The notes under the pieces are model-generated. The model was not told the DNA's origin. It ran no database searches and worked only from the letters and a program-made list of their open reading frames with translations. The position numbers and the translations under genes are program-made. From an uncultured Alteromonadaceae bacterium (GTDB taxonomy: Bacteria; Pseudomonadota; Gammaproteobacteria; Enterobacterales; Alteromonadaceae), in contig CATMRP010000025.1 in assembly GCA_950073835.1 (NCBI GenBank), forward strand, positions 1 through 38,744: DNA of 38,744 nucleotides. The letters run 5' to 3'. Below, piece by piece: positions 30,116-38,546 of this stretch (the stretch's first letter is position 1; each line of letters starts with the position of its first letter).

Positions 30116-31801
30116 TTAGTTCGCCACAGCATTATCAAGTAATTCTTTGGCATTAGCCAGCGCCTTGGGAGTAATTTTATCACCCGCCAGTAAACGTGCC
30201 AGTTCGTCAATTCTGGCTTGTTCGGTAAGTGCTAAAATATGCGTTTGGGTTTCGTTGTGCTCGGTTGTTTTGGTGACAAACAGCTGATTATGCGCCTGCG
30301 CCGCTACCTGGGGTAAATGGGTAACACACATGACCTGATTTTCTTTACCTAAACGGCGCAATAACTGGCCAACTATCGAGGCCGTGGGACCGCTGATACC
30401 GGTATCCACTTCGTCAAAAATCATCGTGGGGGTCAGGCTGGTATCACGGCTGATCACCTGTAAAGCCAGGCCAATTCTGGATAACTCCCCGCCTGATACC
30501 ACTTTATCCAACCGATCCTGTGGTTGCCCCGGGTTAGTTGCCACTTTCATGACTACCGTATCCATACCCATTGCAGAAGGCCTTGCCTGTTCGCCGTAGG
30601 TCACGTCTATGTAGAATTCTGCATGGGGCATATTCAAGGTGCGGATCTGTGTCTGAACCATCCCGGCTAACTTTGCAGCGGCATTAAAGCGGCTTTGTGA
30701 GAGCTTTTCGCTGGCGGCAATATACTCATCATGGCTGCATTCCAGTTCTGTCTGCAGGGCTGTTAGTCTTTCCGTATCGGCACTCAAGCCAGCCAGTTCT
30801 TCAGCCAGTTGCTGGTGATGCTCGTACAGAGCTTCAGGCATTACCTGATGCTTTCGGGCCAGTTCCATAGCCTGAGCAAAACGCTTTTCAACCTGCTGCA
30901 AACGCATTGGATCGATTTCCAGATGATCGCAATAACTGCGTAGCTCGTTTGCCGATTCTTCCACCTGAATGGCGGCTTCATTTAGCATGGCTACTATAGG
31001 GGTTAATGCCGGGTCGTGATCTTCCAGGTTACTGAGTTTATCAATACTGGTCTGGATAGCCGACAACGCATTAAATTCGTCGGCCTCGTATAAATGATAA
31101 AAGCTTTTTTGCGCTTCTTCGAGCAGGGTCTGGCCATTACTCAGGCGTTTATGTTCGGCTTCGAGTTCACCGAACTCGCCCTCTGCTAAGGCAAATTCGT
31201 CCAGTTCTGCTACCTGATAGCTTAACAACTGCTCTCTGTCGGCACGTTGTTGAGCAGCCTGTTCCAGGGTGCTTAACTCTTTTGCCAATTGTTGCCAATG
31301 TCTGTAGGCCGATGCCGTCGTAGAAAGTAACGGACCGTGTTCAGCAAAATCATCCAGCAGTTTGCGTTGTACGTCGTCTTTTAATAACTGCAGGTGGGTA
31401 TTCTGGCCGTGGATGGCCAGTAAAAACTGCCCTAACTGCTTAAGCTGCTGAAGCGCAACCGGCACGCCATTAATGAAAGCCTTTGAGCGGCCTTCTTTCG
31501 AGATCAGTCGCCGAATAAAACAGGTGTTGGGATCGTCATCCAGTACAACGTCGTTTTCATCCAGCCAGGCTCTTGCCAGAGGCGCGTCAAGCAGCGAAAA
31601 ATAAGCAATGATCTCTGCCTTATCAGCACCTTTTCTTACTGCCGATGCATCGGCACGCTCACCAAGACATAAGCTGAGTGCGTCGATAGCAATGGATTTA
31701 CCTGCGCCGGTTTCACCGGTCATCGCTGTCATGCCGGTCTCAAAGGCAATGTTGATTTCTTTCACTACAGCGAAGTTTTTAACCGATAAATGCGATAACA
31801 T
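30116..31801 (-). CDS. recN: DNA repair protein RecN
   Basis: A 561-residue SMC-like ATPase for double-strand break repair. Walker A is GETGAGKS (29-36). Long coiled coils run from about 150 to 365. The signature is SGGELSRIGLALQVI and Walker B is TMIFDEVDTGISG, followed by VTHLPQVAAQAHN. The length is normal. GAGG lies 6 nt before the ATG, and two LexA-like boxes lie just upstream, so SOS induction is expected as in E. coli. Confidence 0.96.
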   Translation of the reverse strand: MLSHLSVKNFAVVKEINIAFETGMTAMTGETGAGKSIAIDALSLCLGERADASAVRKGADKAEIIAYFSLLDAPLARAWLDENDVVLDDDPNTCFIRRLISKEGRSKAFINGVPVALQQLKQLGQFLLAIHGQNTHLQLLKDDVQRKLLDDFAEHGPLLSTTASAYRHWQQLAKELSTLEQAAQQRADREQLLSYQVAELDEFALAEGEFGELEAEHKRLSNGQTLLEEAQKSFYHLYEADEFNALSAIQTSIDKLSNLEDHDPALTPIVAMLNEAAIQVEESANELRSYCDHLEIDPMRLQQVEKRFAQAMELARKHQVMPEALYEHHQQLAEELAGLSADTERLTALQTELECSHDEYIAASEKLSQSRFNAAAKLAGMVQTQIRTLNMPHAEFYIDVTYGEQARPSAMGMDTVVMKVATNPGQPQDRLDKVVSGGELSRIGLALQVISRDTSLTPTMIFDEVDTGISGPTASIVGQLLRRLGKENQVMCVTHLPQVAAQAHNQLFVTKTTEHNETQTHILALTEQARIDELARLLAGDKITPKALANAKELLDNAVAN

Positions 31802-32166: not shown

Positions 32167-35100
32167 ATGAGCGCTTGTTGCCAGAGAAATTATCTTCAGA
32201 ACAAGGGATTGTTACTGCTCAGTGCTGTGGCACCCAATGTTTATGCTTTCCCGTCTTCCCTGCAGGCATTATCGCCGGACCAGTTTAACCTGCTGACCTA
32301 TGCCGCTATTGCCTGCATAGGCTTGTTGTTACTGGTGATTTTTTTTGGCGCTTTCAAGCGAAGCCGACTTAACCAGAAGCTGAATAAAGCCAACTCACTG
32401 CTCACGGTGCAGCAGGAGCGCTTAAATGCAGTGAGTGTAGGGGTTATTCTGGTTGATGAAGCATTGACGGTGACTTATGCCAACCGCACGGGGGCATACT
32501 TACTTGGCCAGAACGCCGATACCGTGAAAGGGAAAGTGCTGGCAGACTTGCTGCCGGTCGAAGCACAACAATTAATTAGTCAGGCCAGCGGTGCCAGCCG
32601 GGAGCTGGCTATTCAGTGTGTGCTTAGTCAGCGGGAGAGGGCATATCGGTTGCGTATCAACCCGGCGCTCAGTCAGGCGGCAGAAGCACATATGATGATC
32701 ATTATTGAGGATGTGCAGGATTACCAACAGCGTCTGGATAATTCAGTCGCCATGCTTGACCATGTTAGCGGATTATTCGATGGCCAGCAGCTGGGCCTGG
32801 CGAAAATTGAGCTGACCGCGCAACAGCTTGCCGTCAACGAAAGTTTAGCCGGCTGGCTCGGTATCGAGCCCGGCGAGTTGCCCATGGAAGAGTTTATGCA
32901 GCGGGTAGACGCACGCGATCAGCAAATGCTCAGTGGCGCGCTGGAGCGTTTGGCGAGCGGCGAATTGCTCGAGGTCAGTACGTCTTTGATGGCAAAATAT
33001 GACAGTCTTATACCCGTTACGTTATGTGGTGCTTTGGCAGAGCATACTGGTGAGTCTGATTCACCGATCGCGCATATGTCGGTAGCAGACTGCCGACAGA
33101 TAACCCGCGCCAAAACAGAGCGAGACGAAGCAATACAGCGTTTTAATACACTGTTATCCACTGCGACACAGCCGGTTTATTTACTCGATGCCGAGCGCAA
33201 ATTTGTCGACGTTAACCGGGCCTTTCTTAGCTTGTTTAAAACCGACTTAATGTACATCAAGGGTAAACCGGTTAGCGAACTCAAACAGTTTGATGAAGCC
33301 TTTAAGGCCCTGCATCAAACCCGCGATAAAATGACGACCAGGCGTCAGGCGATTACCATTGAAAGGGATGACGGGCAACGCCTGTCGCTGCAAGTAGTGT
33401 TGCAAGCGCTGGCAGGAGAGTCAGGTGCTGCTTTGGGGATTATCGAGGATCAAACCGAAGTGGAAGCCCTGACCCATGAAGTGGCCGAAGCCAAAGACCG
33501 GTTAAGTATGTTTACCGACCATTCACCAATGGGGATCGCGGTGTTTAATCGCGAAGGCGATATTAAAGAAGTTAACCAAACCCTCTGCCGTCAGCTGGAC
33601 ATGAACAGCCAGCAATTGCTGTCACAGTCATTTTATCAGTTGTTCACGGACAAAGCGGAAACCGATAAGTTAACCCAGCGGCTGGATAGGCACGATCAGG
33701 CTCGGGAGTTTCCGGCCCGCTTAAACTGCGGTAGCAACAAAACCTTTTCGACAACCCTGCACGCCAACAAAATCAGTGAGATCCCTGAAGAATATGTGTG
33801 CTGGATTGGTAGCCGTGAAGAGCAGGATTACCTCATCAGTCGCTTTGAGCGCCTGGTGAAGTATGCCAGTGTGCCGGTAGCACTGCTAACCAATGAGTGC
33901 TTTACACAGTTTAATTCTGCTGCCTGTGCTTTCTTCGGTATTCAGGATGAAGAAGAAATGCTGGGCCTGCAGTTAACTGCCCCTGAGCTACATGGCGCAA
34001 CAACCAATACAGAAACTCTCGCGCACAAGCTGGAAACCGTTGGAAGCCGCGGTCAGGTGGTTACCCTGAGCTGGCAACATCAGTATCAGCAGCGCGTGTT
34101 ACCTTGCGAACTTACGCTCATTCCCATTCTGAGAGATGCTAAATTACAGGGCATCATATGTATCTGGATCGACTTGCGGGCCATTGAACAAGCTAAAGCG
34201 GCTCGTGCTGAAGCGGTTAAATTACGCCAAGCGGCAGAGCTGGAAGTTGAGGCTAAACAACAGCTGCTGGCCAGTAGCCAGCATCAATTGGCGCAACAGC
34301 AGGAAGCCCTGGCAGAAACGGAGCAAACGCTGGCGCAGGCCGAACTTAAATTACAGGATGCCGAAGTTACGCTGTCGGAAAAAATTGAAACCATTTCAGA
34401 GCTGCAGCAGGCCCACAAAGATATCAGTGAGCATCTGGCCAGTCTGAAGTCTGATTACACCCAAAACCGTGAAATGCTGGAACAAAGTCAGCAGGCTAAT
34501 GCAGCGCTTGAGGCGCAGCTCGAACGCTCCAGTATGAAAGTGGGCAGTCTGGAAAAACAGCGTAACCAGATAGCCGACGCGCTGCAATACAGCGAGCGTA
34601 AATATCGCGAGGCACAACAGCAACTGGAGCAGAGTCAGCAGGAAACATTGCGCCTTGAGCAACAGCAGGCCGAGCAACAAAACGCGGTTGATAATTATGT
34701 GGCAGAAATCGCCGGTTTACAGGCTTCCATCGAAGATAAAGACAAGCAGATTGGTGATGTCAGCGGGCAGATAGCCGCCTTACAATCACAGCTAACTAGT
34801 TCCGGTGAGGCATCGGAAAAATTGCGCGAGCAACTGGCCAACCAGCGCAAAGCCAGTGAGCAGGCAGAGCAGGAACGCCGGGAACTGGCGATGGCCTACC
34901 AGAAAATGCAGGCTGAAGCCGAGGGTAAAGCCCGTCATATCGACCACTTGCAGCACGAGATGCATATGCTCGAGGCGATGTCATCCCAGCAGAAAGGCGA
35001 TATGCAGGCCCATGCTGAACAACTGGCAAAAGAGCTCGATGCCAAACAGTCTCAGCTGCAATCAACACAAACGGCACTGGCTGAAATCAAGCAGCAGGCC

Positions 35101-36666
35101 GAACAGGATAAACAGGAAAAAGCCGCCCAGCAGGAACGCCTGGCGCAGCTGCAGAATGAACTGGCTGATATTGAGAGCCGTTCGGCAGAGCAGCAGTCGA
35201 AGGTGGCTGAAGCTGATGCCCGGCGTAAGGCGGAACATGCAGCATTGCAGCAGGCGCTGCAGGCCAAGCAGGCGGAGTTACAGCAGACTGAGCAGATCCT
35301 GTCAGATGCCAAACAACAAACCGAGGCAGAAAAACAGGAAAAAGCCCGTCAGCAGGCAATCTTTGCCAAGTTGCAGGAAGAGCTCAGTGAAATGCAGCAA
35401 AAATCCACTCAGCAACAGCAGGCTATCCAGCAAAGCGAGCAAAAATGGCACGCAGAGCAGCAAACGCTGGCTAACGAACTGGCTGCCAAGCAGGCTAAGC
35501 TGGCAGCGGCAGAAGCGGAGCTGGATAACCGTCAGAAACAGATGGAAGCCGAAAAACTTGAGCGCGAATCGCAGCAAAACAAGCTGGAGCAGTTGAAATC
35601 GGAAATGGCTGATGTCGCCCAACGCGCGGCTAAGCAAAAAGAAATGATGCTGGGTAGTGACGAGCAGTGGCGTAAGCATCACGAAGAAATCGAAGCGCAG
35701 AAACAACAGTTACAGCAAGCTCTTGAAGAAGCGCAGAGTCAAAACTCCGCGATGCAAAACAAGCTGCAGTCGAGCATGAATGAACTGGCAGACGCCGAAG
35801 AAAAAGTTTCTTTAACCCAAAGCGAAGAACAGAAACTTCACGAGGAGCTGAACCGCTCCAAAGAGCAGGCTCAGGCATTAGAAGCAAAACTAGCCCAGCA
35901 GGAAGAGCAGGAAGCAAAACTTCAGGCACAGGTGCAGGAGCAGCAGTCAGCCCTGAAAATGAGCCAAGGCAGCATCGAGCAGCTTGAGCAGCAGCAACAA
36001 ATGCTTACCGAGCAACTGGAAACGGTTCAGCGCGAATACGCGGCGTCACAGCAATCGTTAACCCAGCAGAATTCGTCTCAGTCAGATTTACATGCACAGC
36101 TTAGTTCGCTGGAAGGTGAACTCAGTGAGCGTAAATCACAGCTGGAGAGCCGCGAAAAAGCGTTACAACAGGCTCAGGCGAAATTCAAAGACAGCGAGTC
36201 CAGACTGGCGGAGCAGGAAAAAGCACTGGTAGAAGCACAAAAAGTAGAGTTGCAGCAGGCCCATGAAGCCGCGGTGCAGGTACGTGAAAAACCCGACTTT
36301 GCCGTCCTGGCCATGCCGCCGGATCCCAATACCTGGTTTGATTTGCTCAGTTACCTGCAAAGTAGTCATCAGGTGAGCTCAATGGCGACATCATTAACCA
36401 GTCTGATGGATAAGCTGGCAGAGGCCACGCGGATTATGGATGACGCGGTGATGGCCGACGACCACCGGGCCATACTCATGGGATCCCGACGCTTAATCAG
36501 TGTGATCAGCACCGTTAATTCGGCGCCTTTAAAAGACATGGAGTCGCGATTAAGTGCAGACTGTAACCATGACAATATTGATAATATTTCTATTTACTGG
36601 CCTATGGCTAAACAAAATCTGCAGCGTACCCTTAGAGTGATTTATTCTCACCTGTATGAGGATTAA
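32167..36666 (+). CDS. Giant membrane-anchored PAS5-coiled-coil protein with pseudo-Hpt C-terminus
   Basis: A 1499-residue protein with no named family recognised. A signal-like hydrophobic stretch (about 13-27) and a TM helix at about 41-64 (LLTYAAIACIGLLLLVIFFGAF) are followed by five PAS-like units at about 83-180, 195-300, 322-435, 445-555 and 559-668. A Gln/Glu/Ala-rich coiled coil runs from about 674 to 1370. The C-terminal helical domain (about 1376-1499) is Hpt-like, but where HxLKG is expected it reads AILMGS (about 1435-1440). There is no H-box, no HATPase, no GGDEF/EAL and no methyl-accepting module. It is likely a cytoplasmic-facing sensory scaffold derived from a hybrid kinase. 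It is monocistronic, with a weak ribosome-binding site. Alternatives are a polar organiser or a chemoreceptor-like rod. The coding call is firm; the function is unknown. Confidence 0.9.
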   Translation: MSACCQRNYLQNKGLLLLSAVAPNVYAFPSSLQALSPDQFNLLTYAAIACIGLLLLVIFFGAFKRSRLNQKLNKANSLLTVQQERLNAVSVGVILVDEALTVTYANRTGAYLLGQNADTVKGKVLADLLPVEAQQLISQASGASRELAIQCVLSQRERAYRLRINPALSQAAEAHMMIIIEDVQDYQQRLDNSVAMLDHVSGLFDGQQLGLAKIELTAQQLAVNESLAGWLGIEPGELPMEEFMQRVDARDQQMLSGALERLASGELLEVSTSLMAKYDSLIPVTLCGALAEHTGESDSPIAHMSVADCRQITRAKTERDEAIQRFNTLLSTATQPVYLLDAERKFVDVNRAFLSLFKTDLMYIKGKPVSELKQFDEAFKALHQTRDKMTTRRQAITIERDDGQRLSLQVVLQALAGESGAALGIIEDQTEVEALTHEVAEAKDRLSMFTDHSPMGIAVFNREGDIKEVNQTLCRQLDMNSQQLLSQSFYQLFTDKAETDKLTQRLDRHDQAREFPARLNCGSNKTFSTTLHANKISEIPEEYVCWIGSREEQDYLISRFERLVKYASVPVALLTNECFTQFNSAACAFFGIQDEEEMLGLQLTAPELHGATTNTETLAHKLETVGSRGQVVTLSWQHQYQQRVLPCELTLIPILRDAKLQGIICIWIDLRAIEQAKAARAEAVKLRQAAELEVEAKQQLLASSQHQLAQQQEALAETEQTLAQAELKLQDAEVTLSEKIETISELQQAHKDISEHLASLKSDYTQNREMLEQSQQANAALEAQLERSSMKVGSLEKQRNQIADALQYSERKYREAQQQLEQSQQETLRLEQQQAEQQNAVDNYVAEIAGLQASIEDKDKQIGDVSGQIAALQSQLTSSGEASEKLREQLANQRKASEQAEQERRELAMAYQKMQAEAEGKARHIDHLQHEMHMLEAMSSQQKGDMQAHAEQLAKELDAKQSQLQSTQTALAEIKQQAEQDKQEKAAQQERLAQLQNELADIESRSAEQQSKVAEADARRKAEHAALQQALQAKQAELQQTEQILSDAKQQTEAEKQEKARQQAIFAKLQEELSEMQQKSTQQQQAIQQSEQKWHAEQQTLANELAAKQAKLAAAEAELDNRQKQMEAEKLERESQQNKLEQLKSEMADVAQRAAKQKEMMLGSDEQWRKHHEEIEAQKQQLQQALEEAQSQNSAMQNKLQSSMNELADAEEKVSLTQSEEQKLHEELNRSKEQAQALEAKLAQQEEQEAKLQAQVQEQQSALKMSQGSIEQLEQQQQMLTEQLETVQREYAASQQSLTQQNSSQSDLHAQLSSLEGELSERKSQLESREKALQQAQAKFKDSESRLAEQEKALVEAQKVELQQAHEAAVQVREKPDFAVLAMPPDPNTWFDLLSYLQSSHQVSSMATSLTSLMDKLAEATRIMDDAVMADDHRAILMGSRRLISVISTVNSAPLKDMESRLSADCNHDNIDNISIYWPMAKQNLQRTLRVIYSHLYED
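35023..35688 (+). repeat. Three tandem 74-codon (222-bp) repeats inside the coiled coil
   Basis: Residues 953-1026, 1027-1100 and 1101-1174 align without gaps: they begin LAKELDAKQSQL, LQQALQAKQAEL and LANELAAKQAKL, share a central EAEKQEKARQQ-like segment and a LQxELxDI/LQEELSEM/LKSEMADV segment. 74 equals nine heptads plus one hendecad, which preserves coiled-coil phase. The DNA copies are clearly diverged. Confidence 0.85.
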
Positions 36667-37323: not shown

Positions 37324-37491
37324 ATGATTCAAACAATTAATGGTTTACGCATTAGTGTAAAACCACCTATATCCAATATTTCCGTGAACAAATTCAACGT
37401 AGCCTTTGAAGACCGCCACAATAAAAAATACGTGCCGCTGCAAAGCGCTATGGAAACCAGGAAGTTTGTTGCCTGGTTGCAGACGATTTAG
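37324..37491 (+). CDS. Small hypothetical protein (55 aa)
   Basis: An ORF of 56 codons from ATG 37324 to TAG 37491. The product (MIQTINGLRISVKPPISNIS... followed by FNVAFEDRHNKKYVPL and ending FVAWLQTI) looks protein-like, with balanced composition and amphipathic segments, but I recognise no family. The ribosome-binding site is weak (AAGA about 8 nt upstream). The stop overlaps the stop of the convergent porin gene by 3-4 bp, which is consistent with a real gene end. It lies beyond the cold-shock terminator, so it would need its own promoter. Confidence 0.5.
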   Translation: MIQTINGLRISVKPPISNISVNKFNVAFEDRHNKKYVPLQSAMETRKFVAWLQTI

Positions 37492-38546
37492 TTAAAGCTC
37501 CAGCTTAAACGTAAACCTAAAACGACGGCGTCATCCGCTTCACGAGCGGCTCCCGGTGAGCCAATCCATTGCAAACTGGGCTGAACAGTCATGCCGTTAT
37601 TAAACGTTGCAGCATAGGTGAGTTCCAGCGCGGTTTCATCGCTACCATATTCCGGCGATCTTGCGTCTGAGGTTCGGGCGTGAGCAATGGCAAGGCCGAA
37701 TTGCTCGTCTCCAAAGCCCCACAATTCACCGCTGACCTGCAGACCAACAGAGTAAAACTCATCGAAAAAGTTAAACTTGCTGGCACCAACGCCGGCCCGA
37801 CCAAACACGGTGATCTGGTAGTCTGACGGTGATGGTTCAAAGCGGTGTTCGGTGCGCAAATAAAAACCGTTGTTTTTGCCCCGGCTGGCGCCGGCATTTT
37901 GCAGCACAACGGAGTCATCATTATAGCCCCACCATCCGGCCAGCCATTTACTTTGTGCTGACTCGTAAGCGTATTCCGCTACTACCAGAAGATTGATGCG
38001 TTTTTCTTCCTGAGCGGCAGTGTGATAATAGAAAATAGGATCGCCGGGCTCGCCATCGGCGATAGCAAATTGCACCGAATGCTTACCACGCTGATAGCCA
38101 AGTTTTGCGGTTAAACCGGGTTGAGGATAAGTGCTCGGGCCATTGGGACCGCTGATACCGAATACGGAGCCCATGCCAAAAGCACTGTGTACAAACAGGT
38201 TGGCACTATCGAGCACGTCAAAGTAGTAATTTATGTCGTATACGCCAATTAACCACGACCAGGACCGGGTATGGTAGCCTGCGGCCAACATGCCAATGTG
38301 AAGGCCGGCCTCGCTGGCCTCAATGTTACTTACTCCTTGTTCGTCGCCAACGATGTCGGAGATCGACTGGTTGTCAGTTAACCACAATTCGCTATGCAAG
38401 GAAAAACCGAATTGAGTTTCATAACGGATGCCAAAGTTGGCAAAGTACAGCAGGGCTTCTGAGCGTTGTCTGCCACCATGAATGTTGGCAAACGAATCAA
38501 CAATCACTTCGGTGTATATATCAGGTGGGCTATCCGACAAATCCAT
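37488..38546 (-). CDS. OprB-family carbohydrate-selective porin, lacking a visible signal peptide
   Basis: A 352-residue beta-barrel protein with alternating aromatic/hydrophobic strands and a C-terminal Phe-Asn after LGLRLSWSF. Core OprB signatures are present: VGDEQGVSNIEA, WLIGVYDINYYFDVLDSANLFVHSAFGMGS, GPNGPSTYPQPGLTAKLGYQ. Homologues mediate diffusion of sugars across the outer membrane. The first ATG in frame (38546) has no ribosome-binding site and is followed directly by mature-like sequence (MDLSDSPPDIYTEVIVDSFANI). An in-frame TAA lies six codons upstream. No signal peptide is found in the other frames either. This gene may therefore be 5'-truncated or frameshifted, or may start in an unusual way. 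Confidence 0.8.
   Translation of the reverse strand: MDLSDSPPDIYTEVIVDSFANIHGGRQRSEALLYFANFGIRYETQFGFSLHSELWLTDNQSISDIVGDEQGVSNIEASEAGLHIGMLAAGYHTRSWSWLIGVYDINYYFDVLDSANLFVHSAFGMGSVFGISGPNGPSTYPQPGLTAKLGYQRGKHSVQFAIADGEPGDPIFYYHTAAQEEKRINLLVVAEYAYESAQSKWLAGWWGYNDDSVVLQNAGASRGKNNGFYLRTEHRFEPSPSDYQITVFGRAGVGASKFNFFDEFYSVGLQVSGELWGFGDEQFGLAIAHARTSDARSPEYGSDETALELTYAATFNNGMTVQPSLQWIGSPGAAREADDAVVLGLRLSWSFN

Follow-up and report, generated by a model that had tools for sequence, protein, structure and literature searches.

A predicted membrane-anchored protein of the Alteromonadaceae in which five PAS domains are joined to a histidine-less, Hpt-homologous tip by a coiled-coil rod that varies mainly in steps of 74 residues

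The stretch of DNA analysed here, referred to as the window (38,744 nucleotides of contig CATMRP010000025.1 from an uncultured Alteromonadaceae bacterium), raises the question of what a protein might do with an array of PAS domains at one end, an Hpt-like domain at the other and no catalytic module between them. The open reading frame in question (32167..36666, + strand, as are all features described below) encodes 1499 amino acids and is supported by three orthologues, free of internal stops, which match nearly all of it with identities of 40, 41 and 52%. A first-pass annotation made from the sequence alone had viewed the product as a former hybrid phosphorelay sensor whose kinase was replaced by a rod, and which perhaps acts as a sensory scaffold or decoy for receiver domains. 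As read from sequence and profile comparisons, the product is a very long membrane-anchored protein composed of five PAS domains, a rod of ~700 residues and a tip which is homologous to Hpt and lacks the histidine.

The N-terminus, as judged by eye in the window protein and in an alignment of 10 proteins, is made up of a signal-peptide-like start (residues 1-27; 32167..32247), a short stub, one hydrophobic helix (about residues 41-64; 32287..32358) and basic residues; this reading agrees with the transmembrane anchor described previously. The five PAS units described at the same time were subjected to a profile search unit by unit, and four of them in isolation exceeded a Pfam cut-off, namely PAS1 (residues 92-182; 32440..32712; PAS_4, 2.5e-9), PAS3 (residues 337-428; 33175..33450; PAS_9, 1e-6), PAS4 (residues 456-548; 33532..33810; PAS, 2.8e-6) and PAS5 (residues 571-669; 33877..34173; PAS_9, 1.9e-6). 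PAS2 (residues 209-308; 32791..33090) alone had no Pfam match at E<=0.1 and is predicted from an AlphaFold2 model of residues 61-695, in which all five PAS-like strand/helix patterns can be seen at moderate confidence (pLDDT 76.5, pTM 0.33).

No kinase, receiver, cyclase, phosphodiesterase or MCP domain was found in the window protein using Pfam and NCBIfam (E<=1); the matches at this threshold were to PAS models, coiled-coil models and whole-kinase models, the last lying over the PAS region only and far under their cut-offs. Pfam scans of 30 of the approximately 50 full-length relatives found PAS in 30/30 and a kinase or receiver domain in 0/30, and the absence of a catalytic module claimed by the first-pass annotation therefore holds for the window protein and for these relatives. 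The domains of a hybrid sensor histidine kinase (HisKA, HATPase and receiver) are all missing from the window protein and the 30 relatives, and a DivL-type pseudokinase core (DHp/CA with the His replaced) is missing likewise, there being no HisKA or HATPase in either. As no kinase-bearing relative was seen, the idea that a rod took the place of a kinase is conjectural. Neither Pfam nor NCBIfam has a model which spans the full layout, as had been suspected, and searches of an open-access library listed no paper on a bacterial protein combining a PAS array, a rod and a pseudo-Hpt domain.

The tip (residues 1387-1499; 36325..36663) had been described as an Hpt-like bundle, a description which fared well when the domain was modelled and compared with Hpt structures. 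The model has four main helices (residues 1406-1429, 1433-1447, 1453-1467 and 1471-1497) with a pLDDT of 92, and the first four Foldseek ranks were all Hpt domains, three chains of 3myf and one of 7c1i, at a probability of 1.00; the best 3myf match had TM scores of 0.72/0.78. The E-values of these four ranks (0.027-0.24) are weak, the best being 0.027 and none reaching 0.001, and from rank 5 downwards Hpt domains are mixed with other bundles. As modelled, the tip is nonetheless a four-helix bundle of the Hpt fold.

Sequence homology to Hpt (PF01627) is apparent through the family and not through the window domain alone. Neither the window protein nor its isolated domain has a Pfam match to Hpt, the isolated tip giving a single weak match to MTS_N (E 0.036), and Hpt was absent at E<=1e-3 from all 30 full-length Pfam scans, including those of the relatives L134 and L137, although the isolated tips of these two exceed the Pfam Hpt cut-off. 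Among 54 tips Hpt was the commonest Pfam family at E<=1 (18/54), and a profile of the 54 matched 3myf at E 0.0069 in a search of PDB sequences, ranked under two de novo helical proteins. When the same profile was run against 369 genomes of the class (E<=1e-3), 18 genomes were matched, of which two belong to the home family; the other 16 gave 18 matches, all of them Hpt by Pfam, or 21/21 if three from earlier searches are included. The tip profile aligned with those 21 Hpt domains in hhalign at a probability of 98.1 over 94 columns, which is not independent evidence as the set was chosen by that very profile. A narrower profile, A1, also gave weak matches to proteins other than Hpt, and its mixed set may be set against the 18/18 obtained outside the family at class level with the broader profile A4. 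Outside the family 3/7 of the weak A1 matches are Hpt (L080, L083 and L085; L081, L082, L084 and L086 are not, as judged partly by eye), whilst within the family L147 is Hpt, L146 is Hpt-like with Gln, and L088 and L148 are not Hpt, the weak matches in G597, G681, G661, G541, G579 and G585 having been left out of this inspection. L146 (8334-11954) is a 1207-residue family protein with Gln in the His column of its Hpt-like stretch. That the tip is an unrelated four-helix fold was considered and rejected, notwithstanding the weak Foldseek E-values, the mixture of folds from rank 5 downwards and the two de novo helical proteins placed ahead of 3myf.

The first-pass annotation was right that the window tip has no phospho-histidine and placed the loss in the wrong register. 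It took AILMGS for the replaced HxLKG motif; AILMGS lies just upstream, and it is RRLIS which corresponds to HxLKG, with R1441 (36487..36489) on the His in the alignment to 3myf, in the profile-profile alignment and against 17/18 distant Hpt matches, where the R1441 column holds His in 17 and Tyr in one (L167). The alignments which set this register all rest on the A4 profile and do not count as independent evidence. Across 64 distinct C-termini (four truncated ones having been dropped) the residue at this site is R in 49, K in 5, H in 4, Q in 3, A in 2 and E in 1, and is thus basic in 54/64. The absence of His is, from these alignments, the rule among relatives and not an absolute, and the proposition that it was lost in all of them fails with the four that keep it. 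As the tip is without His, and the window protein has no phosphorylatable His in an HxLKG motif, canonical phosphotransfer by this protein is not expected. Where the motif has K and G, mostly V/I and mixed residues are found across the 64, so that the usual docking geometry may be gone. The rows with His are scattered and imply a minimum of four changes when placed on a quick tree (128 columns, the phospho-site column left out, 24/61 inner branches open). L134, in which the motif reads HKLKN and the tip passes Pfam Hpt at 1.5e-7, groups with two Arg-bearing sisters (SH-aLRT 99) and its His therefore looks regained; the tip of L137 also has His and passes.

Between the PAS array and the tip lies the rod (residues 671-1372; 34177..36282). 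There is no Pro in its 702 residues, and its hydrophobic residues recur most strongly with a period of 3.51 residues (power 6.4; <=1.4 in 500 shuffles), in keeping with the ~700-residue coiled coil proposed previously. The Crescentin rod domain (PF19220) was matched at 17.2 bits, short of its cut-off of 100. A coiled coil rises by 0.15 nm per residue, at which the rod would measure about 100 nm if fully extended. The rod repeats itself at an offset of 74 residues, with a score of 338, where 20 heptad-block shuffles gave <=172 over offsets 20-239; offset 14, which as an offset below 20 lies outside this test, scores 328, as short coil periods do. Three such units stand in a row, U1 (residues 933-1006; 34963..35184), U2 (residues 1007-1080; 35185..35406) and U3 (residues 1081-1154; 35407..35628), and within offsets 20-239 the best was 74 in 4/5 proteins tested, L132 favouring 72/144.

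The same length recurs in the spacing of landmarks, a feature which the first-pass annotation overlooked. Three conserved rod blocks were used, B1 (residues 735-830; 34369..34656), B2 (residues 872-945; 34780..35001) and B4 (residues 1145-1200; 35599..35766), in a set from which proteins of <1300 residues, hence L035 and the shorter paralogues described below, were left out. From PAS4 to the tip the spacings are nearly fixed across many genera, the main variation coming in 74-residue steps: PAS4-PAS5 is 206 residues in 40/47 proteins, PAS5-B1 95-99 in 34/47 (103-104, about one heptad longer, in 12/47, and 237 in L139), B1-B2 127 in 43/46 and 126 in 3/46, and B4 to the tip 217-225 in 47/47. By comparison PAS1-PAS3 and PAS3-PAS4 each occur in 14 distinct lengths (in 45 and 47 proteins). 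The B2-B4 spacing, for which L145 was dropped as the two blocks could not both be located, is 259-263 in 30/46 proteins and longer in 16/46, at 331, 337, 408-412 (12 proteins), 485 and 554, lengths which correspond to 263 plus 1, 1, 2, 3 and 4 steps of 74. All 46 thus fall within 6 residues of 263+74k, with k = 0-4 extra units, and the quick tree calls for a minimum of eight changes in unit number. None of 200,000 uniform-phase draws equalled the result for the seven length classes, a rough figure given that these were picked by hand. By arithmetic a step of 74 fits nine heptads and one hendecad, or 21 helical turns, and whole units could therefore be added without a break in phase. One exception lies outside these counts: the rod of L035 is 208 residues shorter than those of its near relatives, which is not a multiple of 74. 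L035 (4512-8384, from an Alteromonas oceani record) is a type A protein of 1291 residues.

Two types of protein can be distinguished in the family, the second of which, with a gene cluster of its own, had also been overlooked. Type A resembles the window protein and is mostly 1490-1800 residues long, whilst type B is a shorter paralogue of 890-1291 residues, found six times (L032, L033, L067, L068, L117 and L141), with about two PAS each in L032 and L117, the two for which Pfam detail is available. Profile A1 matched 18/59 Alteromonas genomes, 15 with type A and four with type B, one (G064) having both; 59/295 genomes of the Alteromonadaceae, 50 at <1e-30 and nine weakly only; and 18/394 genomes of the order, 11 strongly, all from the home family, and seven weakly and mixed. 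These searches score part of the candidates in each genome, so that copies can be missed. In two records the type A gene is split into two ORFs (L038, 3888-8384; L133, 7239-12252), by sequencing error or decay.

Conservation is unevenly distributed along the protein. Mean pairwise identity among eight Alteromonas proteins is highest in the rod blocks, the tip and PAS5 (B4 0.74, B2 0.69, the segment leading into the tip 0.67, B1 0.66, tip 0.60, PAS5 0.57), followed by PAS4 (0.48) and PAS1 (0.41), with 0.46-0.56 for the remainder of the rod; PAS1-3 diverge fast, and PAS3 (0.31), PAS2 (0.27) and the N-terminus with its transmembrane helix (0.24) are the least conserved. The rod blocks are no less conserved than the tip and could be the actual binding sites.

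The surroundings of type A genes point to no one partner. Receiver genes, detected with a home-made profile from four seeds among mechanically called neighbouring ORFs, occupy 8/179 slots within two genes of type A and 7/349 farther off (Fisher p 0.16, or p 0.38 with one three-locus group counted once), which is not a significant enrichment and lends nothing to the receiver-binding decoy of the first-pass annotation. Over 51 loci there was no widely shared neighbour, the widest cluster besides the family itself reaching 5/51 loci in five groups, of which one is type B. Three loci of a single genus (L112, L113 and L116) have type A after a response regulator and a kinase, the L112 regulator matching TIGR03787, of a dedicated sortase system, at 4e-120, and type A is itself followed in L112 and L113 by a recJ-like gene (by eye). 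Five loci of another genus (L109, L110, L123, L124 and L132) have type A just downstream of a short FlhB-like gene and of a FliK-like gene, the latter clustered in four of them, with Pfam applied to L124 only, and at three further loci type A follows a recX-like gene (by eye). An association with any particular two-component pair was considered and is unproven, the neighbours differing by genus and the receiver enrichment not being significant. Type B is accompanied by a transmembrane coiled-coil protein at 6/6 loci and by a PstS-like protein and a porin at 5/6 each; the coiled-coil gene occurs in 4/59 Alteromonas genomes, the same four that hold type B, and gave only sub-threshold coil models in Pfam. 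In the window a recN-like gene (30116-31801; SMC_N match, named by eye) is divergent and 365 bases upstream, with no sigma-70-like promoter found between it and the ORF, and an OprB-family porin ORF (37488-38546) lies downstream on the opposite strand; promoter and terminator scans gave nothing usable.

The reading which we tentatively favour, at a little less than an even chance, is that the state of the PAS domains passes along a phase-locked rod to a pseudo-Hpt domain which docks a partner, perhaps a receiver domain. The protein would be anchored in the membrane, non-catalytic and arranged as two parallel copies; PAS1-3 would take species-specific inputs, PAS4-5 would hand a rotational or registry change to the rod, and the rod would carry it to the pseudo-Hpt, which would dock its partner without phosphotransfer, and so read, hold or position it, much as the DivL pseudokinase reads DivK~P. 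Whole 74-residue units could be inserted with the phase kept, and the mostly fixed-step lengthening of the rod in relatives suggests that part of a relay has been reused as a non-catalytic reader or adaptor. The Hpt homology, the basic site in 54/64, the fixed spacings and the conservation of the rod blocks, tip and PAS5 count in favour of this reading, for which DivL, FimL and AHP6 serve as precedents; the weak Foldseek E-values, the lack of a Pfam Hpt match in the window domain, the remodelled HxLKG, the receiver genes at p 0.16, the want of a shared neighbour for type A and the non-74 loss in L035 count against it.

Several of these points serve another explanation, that of a scaffold or polar organiser in which the rod blocks bind proteins, the PAS domains localise or oligomerise, and the pseudo-Hpt lacks a receiver partner and is just a folded cap or a module for dimerisation. 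Rod blocks whose conservation (0.66-0.74) equals or exceeds that of the tip (0.60), the remodelled motif and the lack of significant receiver enrichment are all as it would predict. However, the tip has stayed Hpt-like with a basic residue at the old His site in 54/64, and the fixed spacing from PAS4 into the rod suggests transmission over passive scaffolding; we consider a scaffold a serious contender, if not a probable one. The decoy, in which a receiver withheld by the tip would leave a phosphorelay damped and the rod would be no more than a spacer, draws on Hpt homology without His and on the precedent of AHP6, as given in the accessible text of PMC11903765, yet nearly fixed spacings and stepwise growth exceed the needs of a spacer and its partner protein is hypothetical; we regard it as doubtful. 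Least likely by far is a phosphorelay member still transferring phosphate in some species, with the Arg forms as derived variants, for the His of 4/64 relatives, including the Pfam-passing L134 (HKLKN) and L137, is scattered over at least four changes, L134 sits with two Arg-bearing sisters, and the window protein itself has Arg.

Returning to a PAS array that signals through the rod to a docking pseudo-Hpt, a bolder form can be imagined, a 'sensor on a stick' in which the array presents a pseudo-Hpt that reads receivers, at a distance fixed by the phase-locked rod: about 100 nm for an extended rod, adjustable by about 11 nm per 74-residue unit. The rod would then be both ruler and allosteric cable, and the basic residue would dock in the acidic or phosphorylated pocket of the receiver. 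We think this improbable; if true, a phosphotransfer module would have turned phospho-reader in a kinase-free protein. Whichever reading holds, these proteins occur across a fair share of one marine bacterial family with no Pfam or NCBIfam model for their full layout, and an Hpt domain has been kept after loss of the phospho-histidine although scans of the proteins found no kinase domain, which makes receiver binding without phosphotransfer cleanly testable. The stepwise rod, with its natural set of lengths (263+74k), lends itself to the question of whether a long coiled coil transmits signals by phase or sets distances.

Pseudo-Hpt domains are a known kind already, as are multi-PAS pseudokinases; what is new, as far as literature searches reach, is the combination of parts, the kinase-free setting and the stepwise rod. 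The tip shares its fold, sequence profile and the register of the phospho-site helix with Hpt (PF01627; 3myf of a Shewanella hybrid kinase, HptB 7c1i), and differs in having neither a phosphorylatable His nor HxLKG, in conserved segments at both ends, and in being carried on a rod and not a hybrid kinase. To our knowledge, FimL of Pseudomonas has no PAS, transmembrane helix or rod, unlike the window protein, and AHP6 of Arabidopsis stands alone without sensor or rod. FimL is described in the available part of PMC3019171 as carrying a pair of Hpt-like domains in which Gln occupies the sites, with phosphotransfer unlikely, as resembling the N-terminus of ChpA, and as a polar protein proposed to link Chp and CyaB. 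AHP6, according to the accessible text of PMC11903765, is a pseudo-phosphotransfer protein without a phosphorylatable His and acts as an inhibitor; it is a plant protein, whereas the window protein is bacterial. Some Hpt copies of multi-Hpt CheA/ChpA proteins also lack the conserved His, as reported in the part of PMC10782961 available, but these sit beside intact copies in CheA proteins, which the window tip does not. For the coiled coil of chemoreceptors, whose length changes by whole periods through symmetric heptad indels of a hairpin (PMC5907407, in part), the likeness is to the stepwise rod, the window protein having a 74-residue repeat and no MCP domain match. DivL of Caulobacter, on the evidence of the available part of PMC4211667, combines multiple PAS domains and a transmembrane anchor with a former catalytic module that has no His and reads a receiver; it keeps DHp and CA and has Tyr, whereas the window protein, with no kinase module, ends in an Hpt tip with a 700-residue rod between.
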